DNA of 41,873 nucleotides from Candidatus Tenebribacter davisii (GTDB taxonomy: Bacteria; Cloacimonadota; Cloacimonadia; Cloacimonadales; TCS61). How positions within the stretch are numbered: position 1 is the stretch's first letter; each line of letters opens with the position of its first letter. Made by a program: the position numbers and the translations under genes. A model generated the notes under the pieces. The model was given only the letters and a program-made list of their open reading frames with translations. It was not told the origin of the DNA and ran no database searches. This document shows, in pieces, positions 4,030 through 29,837 of this stretch. The stretch is from the NCBI GenBank assembly GCA_030765535.1, contig JAVCCH010000117.1, forward strand, positions 1 through 41,873. Reading direction: 5' to 3'.

Positions 4030-6927
4030 TTATTTAAGTAATATACATTTATTAGTTAATTGTTTTGTATCCGCTTGCAATTTATAAAGATAGACTCCAG
4101 ATGAAACTGTCTTACCAATATCGTTTTTTCCATTCCATATCATGCTATAAGAAGATGCAGATAATTTTTCATTGATCAGTGTTCTGATCAATTGACCTTT
4201 AATATTAAAAATCTCTAAATTTACGTTTGAGTCTTTTTCCAAATTGAAATTAATTGAAGTTTTTGGATTGAATGGATTGGGGAAGTTGCCGAATAATTCG
4301 ACAATATCATGGGGATCAGGAACAGTGTGTTGCGTTGAATATACATTAGACTCGCCACCTGAGATACATATAACTTCTCCATTTCTACCTCCGCATACCA
4401 TTTCCCATGATCCGTCATTGTTTATATCGGGAATACCAGCAATTGCATCTACAGCAGAACTTATACTAGCAGTTCCTAAGTTTGTTCCATCTGCTCCATC
4501 AAGAAAATAACCATAATTGTTGTTAAATAATGTACCAACTAACACTTCCTGGATCCCATCACCTGTGATATCATTGATCTTATCAACACACCAGGGCTGA
4601 TCTGCTACAGATTGAAGCCATATGTTATCTCCGGTAAATCCATCAATAACAACAGCATTGCTGCTACTGTTGTGAGCGATAAGAATATCAGGGTGAGAAT
4701 CTCCATTGACATCATAAAGTGTTTCAAATCTGATTATCAGGCAAGTACCAATCGAACCGGAATATTCTACATTTCCTGTTGTAGCATTTAATCCATAATA
4801 ATTCCCGCTAAAATCACCTACAACAATATCATCTATATCATCAGAATTGAGATCATCTACCTGACTGATTGCCCATACCGAATTTCCAGCTGTAGTAAAT
4901 TGCCACAGTTGGGTACCATCCGCACCATTAATTCCATAAACTTTACCTTCTGATTCATAAGAATTAGAAGCTCCGGCAATGGCATCAGGAATGTTGTCTC
5001 CATTCACATCTTCTATGCTCAGACAACTGAATTGCGGTCCACCATCAGTATAAGACCAGATAACTGTACCGTCTGAACCATCAACACAAAATATGCGCTT
5101 AGGACCAAGATCCATAGAATCATCACCAGCTACAGCTAAAACATCAATTACTCCATCATTATTAAAATCTTTGGAAGCTTCAACCTGATATACCCATCCA
5201 CCGTCACCATATTCAGATGTATAATATATCCAGATATCTTCACCAGTTTTCCCAGAAATAGCATGTACTGCCCTGTCACCGCCAGTTGTTCCTGCAATAA
5301 TATCATCTTTATCATCACCATCTATGTCATCAATGATAGCTAATCCATTTTGAGAATAGACATCACCGGAAGATATCTCATTTTCCCAAATAATATCTGC
5401 TATACCGGATGAATTACCATTAAAGCAGCGAATAAAATTGTCTTGAGAACATACTATCACATCATCTATATTATCGTTTGTAATATCGGAAATGGGAGCT
5501 ATAGCTTTTGGTGAGTTATCATAACCAGCAGTAATTTGATATTGCCATAATTGCTGACCTATTGGATATGAAGAATCGCTGCCACTTCCATCAAGGGCAA
5601 TACTAATCATTGGTGTAATAGGGTCATTACTGTGAATTATACAAGCTCCATTATAGCTGATAGCTTCTTCGGGATTGAACCAAATTCTTAAGTTATAGTT
5701 TTCAGAAGGAAGAATTGAAACTGGAAGTTCAACAGTATCATCTACAAAATATTGTGAAATATCAAATTCTAATTCACTTAATTCTAACAGTTCATTACCC
5801 TGATTACTTATTTCAATATATCTTCCTGTAACTGCACCCATCCGTACGGAATTATAGTTCTGTGTTGTAGGAGTAACACTAATATGTGGACCTTCAATCA
5901 TTCCATATCCAGTTAATATAATCTCTTCATTTGGATGTACCGGATCATTTGAATTGATCTCTAAAGTACAGTCATAAGTTCCCCAAGATGATGGATTAAA
6001 TAGTATTGTAAGATTTTCGGATGCACCCGGTGCAATAGTAAAAGGTAAATTTTCGTTTGTATAGAATTCAGGTAGAGAAAAATTCATTGTAGTAATAGAA
6101 AGTTCAGCAGTGCCCGAATTAGTGATAGGAAGTTCAACAGAGGCAAGTTGACCAACAGTTGTGTTGCCAAAATCATATTCATCCCAGCCGAGTTGGATAA
6201 CCGGTGCACCAGCACCTTCAAGATCTACTTTATAAAGAAAATCATAATCTCCAGAACCATTATTACAATACCAAAGATATTGTCCATCCCAGACTATTCC
6301 TGCGGGATCAGTACCTTCGGAAGAGTGAAAATCTAATATCGTTCCAGAAGTATCAACTTTGTATAAAACATCATCATAATAGTCTGCAATCCAGAGATCA
6401 CTTCCAAGCATACACAAATCCCATGGTTGTTCAGTGGTGTCTGGGAGTTCAAAATTAAATTGCTGTAACACAGTACCTGTATTGTCAACTTGATAGATTA
6501 TACACGGATTATCCGGGTAGTAGGTTGCAACCCAAAAATCTCCATTATCGTAGGCAATACCAGACATATAATGAGCTGGAAGATCAAATTCGGATAAGAT
6601 ATTTCCTGACATATCATACTGATAGGCAGCAGCAGGTTCGTAAGTACCATTACGATGATCTGTTAACCAGAGGTTAGTTCCATCGAAACTCATGCCATAT
6701 GTATCTTCCAGAATCGGATCACTGAATTGGAGTTGATAAGTTCCATCAGTTGGATCAATTTGGTAGACTTCATCTCCATTGGCTCCATATATGCCGCAAT
6801 AAAGATATGTACCGTCAAAAGCAAGTCCTGATGAGCCTTCAGGAATTGAGTAGGTTTGTACAACTGTCCATTCAGCAGATAAAATTGCTGTAAATAATAA
6901 GAATAAGAAGATTAACTTTTTTTTCAT
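4030..6927 (-). CDS. Secreted multi-domain beta-propeller protein with C-terminal sorting domain
   Basis: This 965-aa protein carries a signal peptide (MKKKLIFLFLLFTAILSA). Domains in order: residues ~19-245, six-bladed NHL-like propeller repeats (W-D-G-x-Y-L-W type); ~246-345 and ~346-455, two ASPM/SPD2/Hydin-like Ig modules (DFGNTTVGQ, EINSNDPVHP, IIHSNDPITP); ~456-865, a second propeller of FG-GAP/PQQ-like blades with eight calcium-loop motifs such as DITNDNIDD, DIDGDDKDD, DFNNDGVID and DVNGDNIPD; ~880-965, a FlgD-like sorting domain (NFPNPFNPKTSI, IFNIKGQLIRTL, GVYLYKL). It is probably exported across both membranes by a type IX-like or related route and displayed at the surface. The ATG follows AAGGAG, and a terminator lies downstream. 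Binding or adhesion is an inference; no catalytic motif is seen. Confidence 0.8.
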   Translation of the reverse strand: MKKKLIFLFLLFTAILSAEWTVVQTYSIPEGSSGLAFDGTYLYCGIYGANGDEVYQIDPTDGTYQLQFSDPILEDTYGMSFDGTNLWLTDHRNGTYEPAAAYQYDMSGNILSEFDLPAHYMSGIAYDNGDFWVATYYPDNPCIIYQVDNTGTVLQQFNFELPDTTEQPWDLCMLGSDLWIADYYDDVLYKVDTSGTILDFHSSEGTDPAGIVWDGQYLWYCNNGSGDYDFLYKVDLEGAGAPVIQLGWDEYDFGNTTVGQLASVELPITNSGTAELSITTMNFSLPEFYTNENLPFTIAPGASENLTILFNPSSWGTYDCTLEINSNDPVHPNEEIILTGYGMIEGPHISVTPTTQNYNSVRMGAVTGRYIEISNQGNELLELSELEFDISQYFVDDTVELPVSILPSENYNLRIWFNPEEAISYNGACIIHSNDPITPMISIALDGSGSDSSYPIGQQLWQYQITAGYDNSPKAIAPISDITNDNIDDVIVCSQDNFIRCFNGNSSGIADIIWENEISSGDVYSQNGLAIIDDIDGDDKDDIIAGTTGGDRAVHAISGKTGEDIWIYYTSEYGDGGWVYQVEASKDFNNDGVIDVLAVAGDDSMDLGPKRIFCVDGSDGTVIWSYTDGGPQFSCLSIEDVNGDNIPDAIAGASNSYESEGKVYGINGADGTQLWQFTTAGNSVWAISQVDDLNSDDIDDIVVGDFSGNYYGLNATTGNVEYSGSIGTCLIIRFETLYDVNGDSHPDILIAHNSSSNAVVIDGFTGDNIWLQSVADQPWCVDKINDITGDGIQEVLVGTLFNNNYGYFLDGADGTNLGTASISSAVDAIAGIPDINNDGSWEMVCGGRNGEVICISGGESNVYSTQHTVPDPHDIVELFGNFPNPFNPKTSINFNLEKDSNVNLEIFNIKGQLIRTLINEKLSASSYSMIWNGKNDIGKTVSSGVYLYKLQADTKQLTNKCILLK

Positions 6928-22392: not shown

Positions 22393-23958
22393 TTACCACC
22401 AAATTTGTTTAAGGTTGTCATAAGTAAAAATACGTTCTTCTTTATCTGAATTTTCTTTGACCAGCCAGTACAATCTTTTAGCAGGAAGGTCTTCAAATGT
22501 TAAAGGTGCTCCCAATGCCATTTTAGTTCCAAAAGGTTTCCAGCCGTTTTCCCAATAAGAAAGTTCATATTCTGCACCGACCTCAAAGAAGACAGTGCTT
22601 CCACCACTTTCCGCCCGGTCGATATTCTTTTTCGTAACTGAATGTAAGATAACTTTATCATTAAATTGTTCATCCCCGCCCAGTAATTTTTTATCTCCAT
22701 TTTTTGTCAGGATAAAAGGATCACCAGCCGGCAGGAGTTCTTCTTCAATATAGAACATGGGAAGGTAAGCTATATCCACACCCATATCTGAGAACTCAGC
22801 AGATCTACCTTTAAGTTCTGCCCAGTGAATTGCTTTCCAGTCACCCGAATTAAATACGCATAAATAGAGATAGTTCGTACTGTCTGGTATATCACGATCG
22901 AGAGTAATATCTACATCGACTACATTTGTGTATTCGCCTGTAACATCCATATAACATTTTCCGCCTAACCAGGCTGGAGCTTTTTCATTATCTTTTAACT
23001 TGAAGGCAAGGTTATCTTTCTGCTCGGAGAAGACCTTTCTATATACTTTAGCCACTTTATTGGAAAGCTTGTATTTGCCTGGATCAGCTTCGGCACCCAT
23101 GAAGGGAATTGGCTTTCCATCAGGCATGACAATAACATTCCAGGCGTGATTATTGCCGGAGTTTGCCCAATGCGGTGTGTAATCACTTGTGGCTCCTATT
23201 CCATTAGCTCTTAAGGCATAGATCGAAAGATTTGTCATATCTTCGCATCTTCCTTCTTTGCTCATAAGCATTTCAAAAAGTCCCTGATCTGTTGGATGTA
23301 AATAATATTTGGCATTGAATTTAAACCAGGTTTTCAGATCGTTATTTATTATCTCTGCAGCTTCTATAATATCTGTTTTATCAAACATCTGTGAAGCTAT
23401 ATCTTTATAACGGTCCAGGAAATAACCTCGCCAGGAACGCCATGATTCTATCGGTTCATTACTCCCACGATATGGTAAAATATACTCTTTGAAAATTGAA
23501 TAGTCATATTTTTTTGACCACGGTTTATCTTCCCAAGCCTTAAAGGCGAGATCTATATTATCAACGAGGTATTCAGAAGTTATAGTTTGATGATCAATTC
23601 TCTTTTCTTTTTTTTTCCAATGTAATTCGCCAAATTCCGCTTCAAGAGAGTCCATTGCGGTCTTTGCTTCATTGTAGTCTTTAAATGTCTCGAAATTCCA
23701 ATTAACTTCAACCTCATTTTCGTCAAATAGACCAACCTTTACATATGAATGGTTCGGCATATTTTCATAAAGGAAAATAAGTGCATCTAATTTGTCTGTC
23801 TGGTCTGTTTTGTTGAAGTATTTCGCAGCATTTTTCAGTTCTTTCTTATTCTTCTCTGAACCTTGCAGAGTCAGTTTTGCCTGTTCCGTGTAATTCACGG
23901 TAGAACATGATATAAACAAAAAGCTGATCAACAAAAAGGACATGAGTTTTATTTTCAT
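22393..23958 (-). CDS. Transglutaminase-like lipoprotein
   Basis: This 521-aa protein has a lipoprotein signal (LLISFLFISCST, Cys18), so it is anchored to a membrane outside the cytoplasm. A transglutaminase-like domain sits at ~225-300 with a Cys-His-Asp triad: EGRCEDM (C238), GNNHAWN (H271) and GAEADPG (D292). The C-terminal ~200 residues are beta-sandwich-like. Such domains act as cysteine proteases or peptide-crosslinking enzymes; the substrate is unknown. Its ATG overlaps the aroDE stop by one base (TAATG), so the two are translationally coupled although no functional link is obvious. Confidence 0.8.
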   Translation of the reverse strand: MKIKLMSFLLISFLFISCSTVNYTEQAKLTLQGSEKNKKELKNAAKYFNKTDQTDKLDALIFLYENMPNHSYVKVGLFDENEVEVNWNFETFKDYNEAKTAMDSLEAEFGELHWKKKEKRIDHQTITSEYLVDNIDLAFKAWEDKPWSKKYDYSIFKEYILPYRGSNEPIESWRSWRGYFLDRYKDIASQMFDKTDIIEAAEIINNDLKTWFKFNAKYYLHPTDQGLFEMLMSKEGRCEDMTNLSIYALRANGIGATSDYTPHWANSGNNHAWNVIVMPDGKPIPFMGAEADPGKYKLSNKVAKVYRKVFSEQKDNLAFKLKDNEKAPAWLGGKCYMDVTGEYTNVVDVDITLDRDIPDSTNYLYLCVFNSGDWKAIHWAELKGRSAEFSDMGVDIAYLPMFYIEEELLPAGDPFILTKNGDKKLLGGDEQFNDKVILHSVTKKNIDRAESGGSTVFFEVGAEYELSYWENGWKPFGTKMALGAPLTFEDLPAKRLYWLVKENSDKEERIFTYDNLKQIWW

Positions 23959-25331
23959 TATCCCTCCTCATTCAATATTGCTATAATAAATCTTTGCTGG
24001 TGGATTTTCGACTGAAGGATCCAAAAATTATTTCCATCAATAAATTTGACTTCATTTTCAATACAATTAGTTATTAGTAAAGTATTATTTTGTATATATG
24101 GCAGGTCGATCACACTTTTTGGAAGTTTTAGAGTAAAAGTTCGTAATAGATTTTCTTTGTTTGTGCCAATTGGCGTGCAATTAATTATCAGGTCAAATTG
24201 ACAGTCCCTCAATAAGTTAAGTGAAATAAAATTACGCTTACCTGCTTGTGCCAGTGCTCTGCCGGTTAATTCATTCCGGCTTGCAATATTTACTTTTTTA
24301 AAATCATTAAGTGCCTGCAATGCTGTTTCAGCAGTTGCTCCGCTGCCAACTATAAGAATTGAGTAGTTCTTTTGGATTGATAAAATTTCCAGTGATCTTT
24401 GAAATGCGATAAGATCAGTATTCAACATTTCATCAGTTTTTGGCAGAAATAAATTAATTGCATCAAGTCCTTTTTGGGTTCCGAATTTTTTTTTATACGG
24501 CATTGTTATGGAAAATCCATAAAGATCAATCTTACTGGTTTTAATCCAATTCCAGAGATCATCAAAATCATCAGTAATAAGGGGAAGATATACAGCATCA
24601 AGTTTTTCTTTAGTGAAGAGCTCATTATAATATTTTATGCCGAGTGATTGTTCAACTTGCCTACCGCCAATTATCCCGCCGATCTGTGTATTTGCAGAAA
24701 TGGATCTAAGTTTAAATAATTCAACTTCTTCCTTTATTAATTGTCCTTCTGCTGTATTATTACCGGGTAAGCCAATAAATGTTGCATCTGCACCAAGGTG
24801 CTTGAATAAGATCCTGCTAATCTTACCAAGTTTCCCCATCCCGGCAAATATAACCGGTTTTGTAGTTTGGGATATTAATTTTGTAATTTTTATCAGGTCG
24901 TTATATTTTGAGATTCTAACGGCGATCTTTATATATTTGGAAGGGATTGAATCTAATTTTTTGATGATATCTTTTAACTTTTTATAATCAATATCTTCAG
25001 AAAAGTTATGATAGGAAAGAATAAGATTTTCAGCCGGAATTGATGAAATATCATGCTGATCTATTTCATTGATCTCCAGATCGCAAAGGCAGTTTGTTTT
25101 GGAAACCAGTATACTGTAAAATTCAATTTTATCAATGAGATCAAAATCGTATTTTCCGCCTTCATTTTTACTGCGAATGGTAATAATTGTTTTATCATTG
25201 ATTAATTCGGAAGGAAATGAATGTAGATCCCGGGAATAATCCAAACGATATTCTTTCCATTGATCCGGATTTTCCTCGGATTTCTGAAAAACGAAATCGT
25301 TATCTAAATAGGGTATTGAAAGAATTATCAT
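23958..25331 (-). CDS. aroDE: Bifunctional 3-dehydroquinate dehydratase / shikimate dehydrogenase
   Basis: Catalyses two consecutive shikimate-pathway steps. Residues 1-~212 form a type I dehydroquinase: KEYRLDY, the general-base His in LSYHNF (H108) and the Schiff-base Lys in IKIAVR (K135). Residues ~216-457 form a shikimate dehydrogenase: GFSITMPYKKK with T275 and K280, AIN, and LNTD with D306; the NADP part has GSGATAETAL. The usual HSxSP substrate loop reads EQSLGI, keeping one serine but not the second. Fusions of this order are known in plants, Chlamydia and some bacteria. It overlaps aroC by ATGA. Confidence 0.9.
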   Translation of the reverse strand: MIILSIPYLDNDFVFQKSEENPDQWKEYRLDYSRDLHSFPSELINDKTIITIRSKNEGGKYDFDLIDKIEFYSILVSKTNCLCDLEINEIDQHDISSIPAENLILSYHNFSEDIDYKKLKDIIKKLDSIPSKYIKIAVRISKYNDLIKITKLISQTTKPVIFAGMGKLGKISRILFKHLGADATFIGLPGNNTAEGQLIKEEVELFKLRSISANTQIGGIIGGRQVEQSLGIKYYNELFTKEKLDAVYLPLITDDFDDLWNWIKTSKIDLYGFSITMPYKKKFGTQKGLDAINLFLPKTDEMLNTDLIAFQRSLEILSIQKNYSILIVGSGATAETALQALNDFKKVNIASRNELTGRALAQAGKRNFISLNLLRDCQFDLIINCTPIGTNKENLLRTFTLKLPKSVIDLPYIQNNTLLITNCIENEVKFIDGNNFWILQSKIHQQRFIIAILNEEG

Positions 25332-26629
25332 TGTTTGTTTTTACTTTCCGAAATAATGATCTGCCAAATTTTGAGGACAACAGATCCATCAATATTCCAC
25401 AATTTTGCTTTCTGTTCAAGTTGGGAGAGTAATTCTTTTTCTCGATCTTTATTTTCAATTTGAAGATTATTTTTCTGTTTGAACTTTCCGATAAGTTCAG
25501 ATATTTTTTGCCTTCTGCACAGTGCTGTTAAAATATCCTCATCGATCTTATCAATTGCTTCTCGGTAATCTGATAATTGCAGAGTATCATTTGCGATCAG
25601 TTTCTGATAACTTAGTGCATCTGCCAGTACAAGTTTAATCATTGCTTCTGCAACAGGTATAATGCGGGGAATTATGCAGGTGTCATGCCTGCCTTGAGAT
25701 TTAAATTCAACTTCTTCATTGCTTATTGTAACAGTTTTCTGAAGTTTATTGATCGAGGAAGTAGGTTTAACTGCAAATCGGAAGATCAAGTCATTCCCAG
25801 TACTTATTCCACCCAGGATCCCACCCTGGTGATTTGAAATAAATCCATTCTTATTCATTTGATCATTTGCCTTACTGCCCGTTAGTGCTGCAAGTTTAAA
25901 TCCATCACCAAATTCAATTCCTTTAACCGCACCAATTGAGAGAATTGCTTTTGCCAGATTTGCATCAAGTTTTTCAAATACCGGATCACCAAGTCCGGCT
26001 GGAATGCTGGTGATCCTTACCTCTACAATGCCGCCGATGGAATTTTCTTCTTCTTTTATCTTGTCCAAATATTCTATCAGGTCATTATAATTCGATCTAT
26101 CATGCCATGATAATTCATTCTGAATAGAAGCATCAAATTCAGATATTTCAAATTTTCCGATTTTCACAGGATATATGTTAATATTGATCCCATCTGTTAT
26201 ATCTTCAACTAATCCAGCTGCTGCAACTCTTGATATAGTCTCTCTACCGGAAGCTCTCCCTCCGCCACGATGATCATAGATCTTGAATTTCTTAAAATAA
26301 GAATAATCTGCATGTCCCGGGCGGAACAAGTCTTTTAAATGCTCATAATCTTTACTTTCAGCATCTTTATTATAAACAACTAAACAGATTGGCATGCCTG
26401 TCGTTACTCCATCCAGCATACCTGACAGAACTTGAATTTCATCTTCCTCGCTGCGCGCTGAGGAATATTCACCCTTACCGGGTCTGCGTTTATGTAAAGC
26501 ATCCTGGATCTTATTCAATGGAAATTTTATCCCGGGTTTTACATCTTCAATTACTACTCCGATCACTTTCCCATGACTTTCACCAAAAGTAGTGATCCCG
26601 TAAAATTTATCATAGCTATTCGATTTCAT
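25328..26629 (-). CDS. aroC: Chorismate synthase fused to AroQ-type chorismate mutase
   Basis: Residues 1-~350 are chorismate synthase, the FMN-dependent last step to chorismate: TTFGESHGK (H19), GGGRASGRETISRVAA and QGRHDTCIIPR. Residues 354-433 are an AroQ-fold chorismate mutase; aligning by eye to the E. coli P-protein, the residues equivalent to R11, R28, K39, R51, E52 and Q88 are all present (R356, R373, K384, R396, E397, and the final residue Q433). One enzyme could thus make chorismate and convert it to prephenate. I choose the ATG at 26629, behind AGGA; the frame is open to 26722, but that extension looks like leader DNA. The stop overlaps aroDE. Confidence 0.9.
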   Translation of the reverse strand: MKSNSYDKFYGITTFGESHGKVIGVVIEDVKPGIKFPLNKIQDALHKRRPGKGEYSSARSEEDEIQVLSGMLDGVTTGMPICLVVYNKDAESKDYEHLKDLFRPGHADYSYFKKFKIYDHRGGGRASGRETISRVAAAGLVEDITDGININIYPVKIGKFEISEFDASIQNELSWHDRSNYNDLIEYLDKIKEEENSIGGIVEVRITSIPAGLGDPVFEKLDANLAKAILSIGAVKGIEFGDGFKLAALTGSKANDQMNKNGFISNHQGGILGGISTGNDLIFRFAVKPTSSINKLQKTVTISNEEVEFKSQGRHDTCIIPRIIPVAEAMIKLVLADALSYQKLIANDTLQLSDYREAIDKIDEDILTALCRRQKISELIGKFKQKNNLQIENKDREKELLSQLEQKAKLWNIDGSVVLKIWQIIISESKNKQ

Positions 26630-28637: not shown

Positions 28638-29837
28638 ATGAACAGAATATTAACAATAAATTCGCTCCAAGATGCTGCCCGGGAATTAAAAAAGATCAAT
28701 GTCTCTTCACGGGGAGTTGAAGTGATGGCACCCAAAGCCCTAGGTCTTTCTATAAAACTTTCAAATGTAAAACTTGGTGCTGCGAATATCCTTAAACAGG
28801 AAATGCTCTCAATTGGGGGAGATGCCGCAGTTGCAAAAGGCGTAGTAAATGGTAAACTTGAAACTAGTGATCTGATCCTTTTGGGGAATTTAGATAAAAT
28901 AAAAAAACTTGTAAAAAAATTAAATTACCAAACTATTTTCGGATTACCTGAAATAAAAAAAGATCTGATAAATATGATTGATACACTGGAAAATCCTCAA
29001 AAAATGTTCCTGAATTGTAACGGGATCAAATTAAAGTTGGATGAAACCAGAATAATAGGAATTCTCAATGCAACACCGGATAGCTTCTCAGACGGGAATC
29101 TATATTACAAGACTGAGGAAGCAGTACAACATGCATTAGATATGATATCTGAGGGTGCAGATATTATTGATATTGGAGGGGAATCAACCAGGCCCGGAGC
29201 AATGAAAATTAATGCAGATTCAGAATTAAAAAGAGTTATTCCGATCATAGAAAAGATCCGCAGAAAATCAGAGATTCCCATTTCTATTGATACGAATAAA
29301 GCAGAAGTTGCGAAGATTGCAATCCAGGCGGGAGCTTCCATAATAAATGATATTAGTGCACTTAGATTTGATGTTGGTATGGTAAAAGTATTACAAAAAT
29401 TCCCTGAAGTTCCAATAATTTTAATGCATATGCAGGGAACACCAGAAACAATGCAGGATGATCCGTATTACGAGGATGTTATTGAAGACATTTTATTATT
29501 CTTTGAAGAACGAATTAACTTCTGCCAGGAGAACGGTATAAAAAGAGAAAGAATAATTATTGATCCAGGCATTGGATTTGGAAAGAGGCAGGAAGATAAT
29601 CTGACGATCTTGAAAAAGCTGTCTGAATTCAAATGTTTTGGGGTACCGGTATTAATTGGTGCTTCCCGTAAAAGCTTTATTAAAAAGGTATATGATTCAA
29701 TCGCTACCGAACGACTTGCCGGAAGCCTTGCTTCCACTGCGTATGCAATACAAAACAGGGTAGAACTAATTCGTGTCCATGATGTGAAGGAACACACTGA
29801 ATTTCTTAAAATTATGAAAGAAATAAGGAATATATAA
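28638..29837 (+). CDS. folP: Dihydropteroate synthase
   Basis: Joins p-aminobenzoate to the pterin diphosphate in folate synthesis. The core motifs are all present: GILNATPDSFSDG, DIGGESTRPGA, INDISALRFD, ILMHMQGTPETMQ and IDPGIGFGKRQEDN. At 399 aa it is longer than the common ~280 aa because of a ~120-residue N-terminal domain (INSLQDAARELKKINVSS, LGAANILKQEML); the same extended form occurs in several anaerobes. The stop shares a base with the cdaA start (TAATG), so expression is coupled. Confidence 0.93.
   Translation: MNRILTINSLQDAARELKKINVSSRGVEVMAPKALGLSIKLSNVKLGAANILKQEMLSIGGDAAVAKGVVNGKLETSDLILLGNLDKIKKLVKKLNYQTIFGLPEIKKDLINMIDTLENPQKMFLNCNGIKLKLDETRIIGILNATPDSFSDGNLYYKTEEAVQHALDMISEGADIIDIGGESTRPGAMKINADSELKRVIPIIEKIRRKSEIPISIDTNKAEVAKIAIQAGASIINDISALRFDVGMVKVLQKFPEVPIILMHMQGTPETMQDDPYYEDVIEDILLFFEERINFCQENGIKRERIIIDPGIGFGKRQEDNLTILKKLSEFKCFGVPVLIGASRKSFIKKVYDSIATERLAGSLASTAYAIQNRVELIRVHDVKEHTEFLKIMKEIRNI

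Follow-up and report, generated by a model that had tools for sequence, protein, structure and literature searches.

Chorismate synthase (AroC) is the last (seventh) enzyme of the shikimate pathway and depends on FMN. Its product is the substrate of chorismate mutase (CM), an enzyme whose fusions have informed thinking on branch-point control for decades. The published fusion partners of AroQ-type mutases are PheA, TyrA, DAHP synthase, TyrA-PheA-ACT and cyclohexadienyl dehydratase (PMC1173090, PMC10520331). Our search of the open-licence literature returned no description of an AroC–mutase fusion, nor of prephenate metabolism in Cloacimonadota.

The gene described here, aroCQ, lies in a stretch of 41,873 nucleotides from Candidatus Tenebribacter davisii (Cloacimonadota), called the window below, and its AroC–AroQ product resembles each of the known systems in part. 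As in the P-protein (AroQ–PheA), an AroQ-alpha mutase is joined to the enzyme of an adjacent step; in the P-protein, however, the mutase is N-terminal and coupled to the following step, whereas in AroC–AroQ it is C-terminal and coupled to the preceding one, and the prephenate dehydratase (PDT) domain of the P-protein has no counterpart in the window's genome. The T-protein (AroQ–TyrA) has a similar mutase domain, again within a bifunctional aromatic enzyme, but its partner and domain order differ, and the window's genome gave no PDH_N match. AroQ is also joined to a shikimate-pathway enzyme in the CM–DAHP synthase fusions and complexes; there the mutase sits on the first enzyme and serves or receives feedback control, whereas in AroC–AroQ it sits on the seventh, which makes its substrate. 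The exported CM–cyclohexadienyl dehydratase proteins are likewise rare fusions of a mutase with a neighboring step, in which both domain orders arose independently, but they are built from an AroQ-gamma domain and a PheC-type partner (PMC10520331). Compared with monofunctional chorismate synthases (1um0, 5z9a), residues 1–343 of the window protein are ordinary, and the known solved chains carry no mutase tail. What is new in AroC–AroQ is the partner, the domain order and the genomic setting; the protein itself would be expected to work like two ordinary enzymes.

The fused gene and its surroundings

The features of the locus relevant here are the following:

25328–26629, minus strand: predicted bifunctional chorismate synthase–chorismate mutase (AroC–AroQ), 433 aa, from an uninterrupted ORF, Pfam matches and an AlphaFold model
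25613–26596, minus strand: chorismate synthase domain, residues 12–339 (PF01264)
25568–25612, minus strand: linker, residues 340–354 (model pLDDT 64–67, low confidence)
25331–25567, minus strand: AroQ-alpha chorismate mutase domain, residues 355–433 (PF01817)
23958–25331, minus strand: aroD–aroE fusion (dehydroquinase/shikimate dehydrogenase), 457 aa, with a 4-nt overlap at the aroCQ stop

The aroCQ frame runs from an ATG at 26629 to a stop at 25328, through 433 codons with zero internal stops. M1 is invariant across 28 relatives, so translation does not begin at an in-frame TTG further upstream (26722); the coordinates and start given in a preliminary description of the locus stand. In a Pfam search, PF01264 covered the chorismate synthase domain at full length (residues 12–339, profile positions 3–326 of 327, E = 3.2e-119), and PF01817 (CM_2) matched residues 355–433 (profile positions 1–79 of 80, E = 4.4e-18, 65.7 bits against a cut-off of 27). 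Both domains are thus complete in one ORF, with the AroQ domain at the C-terminus of chorismate synthase, as had been proposed; the same search found no PDT or PDH domain on the chain. The NCBIfam model for aroC, TIGR00033, scored 382 bits (cut-off 212). An AlphaFold model built from 28 fused relatives (pLDDT 83, pTM 0.80) consists of a chorismate synthase body, the low-confidence linker and a three-helix tail, and its top Foldseek match was the chorismate synthase 1um0 (E = 5e-30).

Of 28 loci from relatives, 27 have an aroDE homologue, which in most cases directly follows aroCQ. In the window's own aroD–aroE fusion, the dehydrogenase half is divergent, with PF01488 under the cut-off. Elsewhere in the window, folP (dihydropteroate synthase, 28638–29837, plus strand) is present, despite the fact that we found no PabB-type (PF00425) enzyme in this genome, which leaves p-aminobenzoate without a recognized source.

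The mutase domain: fold, active site and selection

Used alone as a phmmer query, the tail matched E. coli CM (EcCM; 1ecm, E = 8.5e-8) and other AroQ mutases. Its predicted helices (352–387, 394–410 and 415–432) superpose on chain A of 1ecm with an rmsd of 0.8 Å and a TM-score of 0.86 on the target (Foldseek on the AlphaFold model), which answers the call for a comparison with the E. coli enzyme. The alignment to EcCM is ungapped and takes in the catalytic residues: R356, R373, K384, R396, E397, S429 and Q433 correspond to R11, R28, K39, R51, E52, S84 and Q88, respectively, and among the mapped residues only D48 differs, being N393 in the window protein. The key AroQ residues are therefore kept, as first suggested, with this one substitution.

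Across the 28 fused proteins, the equivalents of EcCM R11, D18, R28, K39 and R51 are invariant and that of E52 is found in 27. Mutation of K39 to alanine in EcCM costs 10^4–10^5-fold (PMC10520331). The equivalent of Gln88 is less uniform. It is kept in 17 of the 20 fused proteins outside family f10 and in none of the eight inside it (L070–L073, L082–L084, L088), where the mutase domain lacks roughly the last 5 residues. The preliminary description had taken Q433 as the mark of a complete domain under selection; this holds outside f10, but not as a general rule. Judging from the sequences, mutase activity in f10 may be reduced, changed or lost. In many genera of this family, both AroC and CM are gone.

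Many of the specific NCBIfam mutase equivalogs matched the tail and none did so above its own cut-off (best scores, 48.4 bits against 66.95 for TIGR01791 and 48.1 against 52.15 for TIGR01808), implying that the mutase domain is a distinct subtype. Among close relatives, dN/dS was 0.07–0.22 for the mutase domain and 0.08–0.14 for the AroC domain. Both domains are under purifying selection.

Distribution and origin of the fusion

AroC was present in 57 of the 99 Cloacimonadota genomes that we examined. The AroC–CM_2 fusion was intact, in one ORF, in 49 of these 57 separately assembled genomes, with identities of 44–79%; in seven more, contig ends or a frameshift interrupted the match, which was consistent with a fusion, and only one (G040) had separate aroC and aroQ genes. 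A CM_2 domain occurred in every AroC-bearing genome (57/57) and was absent from 41 of the 42 without AroC. The fusion is fixed in the whole phylum, and it also occurs in named public MAGs (L032–L039). The window's genome (3.0 Mb, 95% complete) has no second CM_2 domain, which answers the question of a separate mutase there as far as the CM_2 type is concerned, and the fusion is the sole CM_2 protein in nearly all relatives as well.

Some individual loci depart from this arrangement. In G021 (contig 146, 3138–4416), aroCQ is split over two frames, through either a pseudogene or an assembly error. G049, a genome in which we found no AroC, has a stand-alone 87-aa chorismate mutase gene right after an mfd-like helicase gene (L103:8192–8455). 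G040 has a full aro cluster, aroDE-DAHPS-aroB-aroA-aroC-aroQ (L080:1230–6906), in which aroC (5646–6644) and aroQ (6631–6906) are adjacent, overlapping genes. Its AroC falls in a third group of the AroC tree, implying that the separate genes are a replacement there and not clearly the ancestral state.

Outside the phylum, we searched about 260 bacterial genomes from many families for CM_2. A model of the fused protein was then run against the 72 able to hold a fusion (a mutase ORF longer than about 405 aa, second copies, or an unlisted ORF), and only two of these had one: G198 and G339, from one genus of family f87. A C-terminal CM_2 domain on AroC, the lineages of which the preliminary description had wished to see mapped, was thus found in Cloacimonadota and in this unrelated family. 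The f87 gene string is aroDE-aroA-aroK-aroCQ-tyrA, in which tyrA and the fusion share 4 nt; a CM–PDT pheA is present as a gene of its own. In a tree of AroC domains, all Cloacimonadota fusions formed one clade (100/100) and the f87 proteins were placed elsewhere (100/100). An AU test of a single clade for the two sets gave p = 0.038, which disfavors a single origin, albeit not strongly; the f87 fusion probably arose independently of the Cloacimonadota one. The source of the mutase domain was not recovered, as the tree of the 80-residue domain was too poorly resolved.

Fate of prephenate and function of the fused protein

The known users of prephenate are missing from almost the entire phylum. 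Prephenate dehydratase was found in all 14 control genomes and not in 98 of the 99 Cloacimonadota genomes; in the window's genome, there was no match even at an E value of 10. For prephenate dehydrogenase, the controls were again positive (14/14), and none of the 99 Cloacimonadota genomes had a match above the cut-off. On the chorismate side, TrpE/PabB-type enzymes (PF00425) were found neither in the window's genome nor in 93 of the 99.

Several other candidate consumers were tried and rejected. CmoA, which converts prephenate to carboxy-SAM, was above the TIGR00740 cut-off of 193 bits in 0 of 99 genomes, and the weak matches to this model resemble other methyltransferases. A PheC-type cyclohexadienyl dehydratase was ruled out in the window's genome, G007 and G026, where PF00497 matches were absent or lay only in ORFs of 745–1546 aa; SBP_bac_3 proteins of PheC size were not found in the window's genome. 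Two PDH_N matches below the cut-off (in G049 and G043) are glycerol-3-phosphate dehydrogenases by sequence. In G051, aroCQ and aroDE are separated by a 245-aa gene that was considered as a possible new prephenate enzyme; its product has a lipoprotein signal and belongs to no enzyme family.

As an independent check, we searched with sensitive settings a genome of the same family as the window's (G026; 2.04 Mb, 99% complete) that also has the fusion. It encodes a DAHP synthase (over the NCBIfam cut-off), aroDE, shikimate kinase and EPSP synthase; an aroB-like gene is tentative, its tested part being below the aroB cut-off and the gene sitting in a polysaccharide cluster. The sensitive search returned no dehydratase, dehydrogenase or TrpE/PabB enzyme, and none of the neighbors of the DAHP synthase, aroB-like and aroA genes was a candidate consumer. 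The route can therefore be traced to prephenate and no further. Just upstream of aroA on contig 5 of this genome (L146:7728–10555) are a flavin reductase-like gene and an iron alcohol dehydrogenase gene; the flavin reductase-like protein might be the source of reduced FMN for chorismate synthase. Most of the genomes are MAGs, in which a single absence means little; the pattern over 99 genomes, together with the 99% complete G026, is strong.

We consider it highly probable that aroCQ encodes a bifunctional enzyme taking EPSP through chorismate to prephenate, and mutase activity of the AroQ tail is very likely. The N-terminal domain would convert EPSP to chorismate in the FMN-dependent reaction established for its family, whereupon the AroQ-alpha domain at the C-terminus would convert chorismate to prephenate. 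In EcCM, each active site is completed by Arg11 of the partner chain. The mutase domains of two AroC–AroQ chains would presumably pair in the same way to build their active sites, and since chorismate synthase is a homotetramer, both symmetries can be satisfied in one particle. Such a fusion would commit newly made chorismate to prephenate and hold the two activities at 1:1, and might bring a kinetic benefit. Given the absence of chorismate users of the TrpE/PabB type, the whole pathway is probably committed to prephenate by the fusion. Direct transfer of chorismate between the two active sites is possible; when a CM–cyclohexadienyl dehydratase fusion was tested kinetically, no channelling was observed (PMC10520331).

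Three points count against a working mutase: the Asn in place of D48, the loss of Gln88 in f10 and the lack of a known prephenate-using enzyme in the genome, the last of which is odd and sits ill with such an activity. The latter two would fit a tail that is a non-enzymatic, structural or regulatory part of chorismate synthase, for instance a dimerization or chorismate-sensing domain. AroQ domains do serve as regulatory domains of DAHP synthases, and the CM-like domain of the B. subtilis DAHP synthase has low activity (PMC5526877). We nonetheless regard a purely structural or regulatory tail as unlikely, given the near-complete catalytic set outside f10 (K39 and E52 included) and the low dN/dS; moreover, with no TrpE/PabB-family user, none of the outputs of the shikimate route that we tested for would be left if the mutase were idle.

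It is very improbable that the tail acts on a different substrate, for instance on isochorismate, as the pyruvate lyase PchB does. PchB structures were among the nearest folds in Foldseek, and phmmer gave weak PchB matches, but sequence scores favor mutases and no isochorismate synthase (PF00425 family) was found in the window's genome. At the position of EcCM Glu52, PchB has Val (PMC12329711), and the Glu retained in the tail makes it mutase-like rather than lyase-like. Finally, a merger of two neighboring genes by misassembly or frameshift, which adjacent, overlapping genes such as those of G040 might have suggested and which had been raised as a way in which the description could fail, is refuted by the one-ORF fusion in 49 separately assembled genomes and in the public MAGs.

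If the fused protein is indeed a synthase–mutase, prephenate must be consumed in this lineage by enzymes that escape the known family models. The options are unrecognized dehydratase and dehydrogenase families, a non-enzymatic route (for phenylalanine only, since prephenate slowly loses CO2 and water to give phenylpyruvate), or a different product. Because nearly the entire phylum lacks the known dehydratases and dehydrogenases as well as the known users of chorismate, we tentatively suggest, as a reading somewhat short of even odds, that the Cloacimonadota shikimate pathway ends in a committed AroC–AroQ making prephenate, and that undescribed families convert the latter to phenylalanine, tyrosine or some other product.

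Whereas the known CM fusions involve later steps or the first step of the pathway, AroC–AroQ involves the very step that makes the mutase substrate, and thus offers a clean system for asking whether tethering successive branch-point enzymes alters flux. For the organisms themselves, a chorismate mutase maintained by selection, with no recognizable user of prephenate beside it, points to undiscovered aromatic metabolism in Cloacimonadota.
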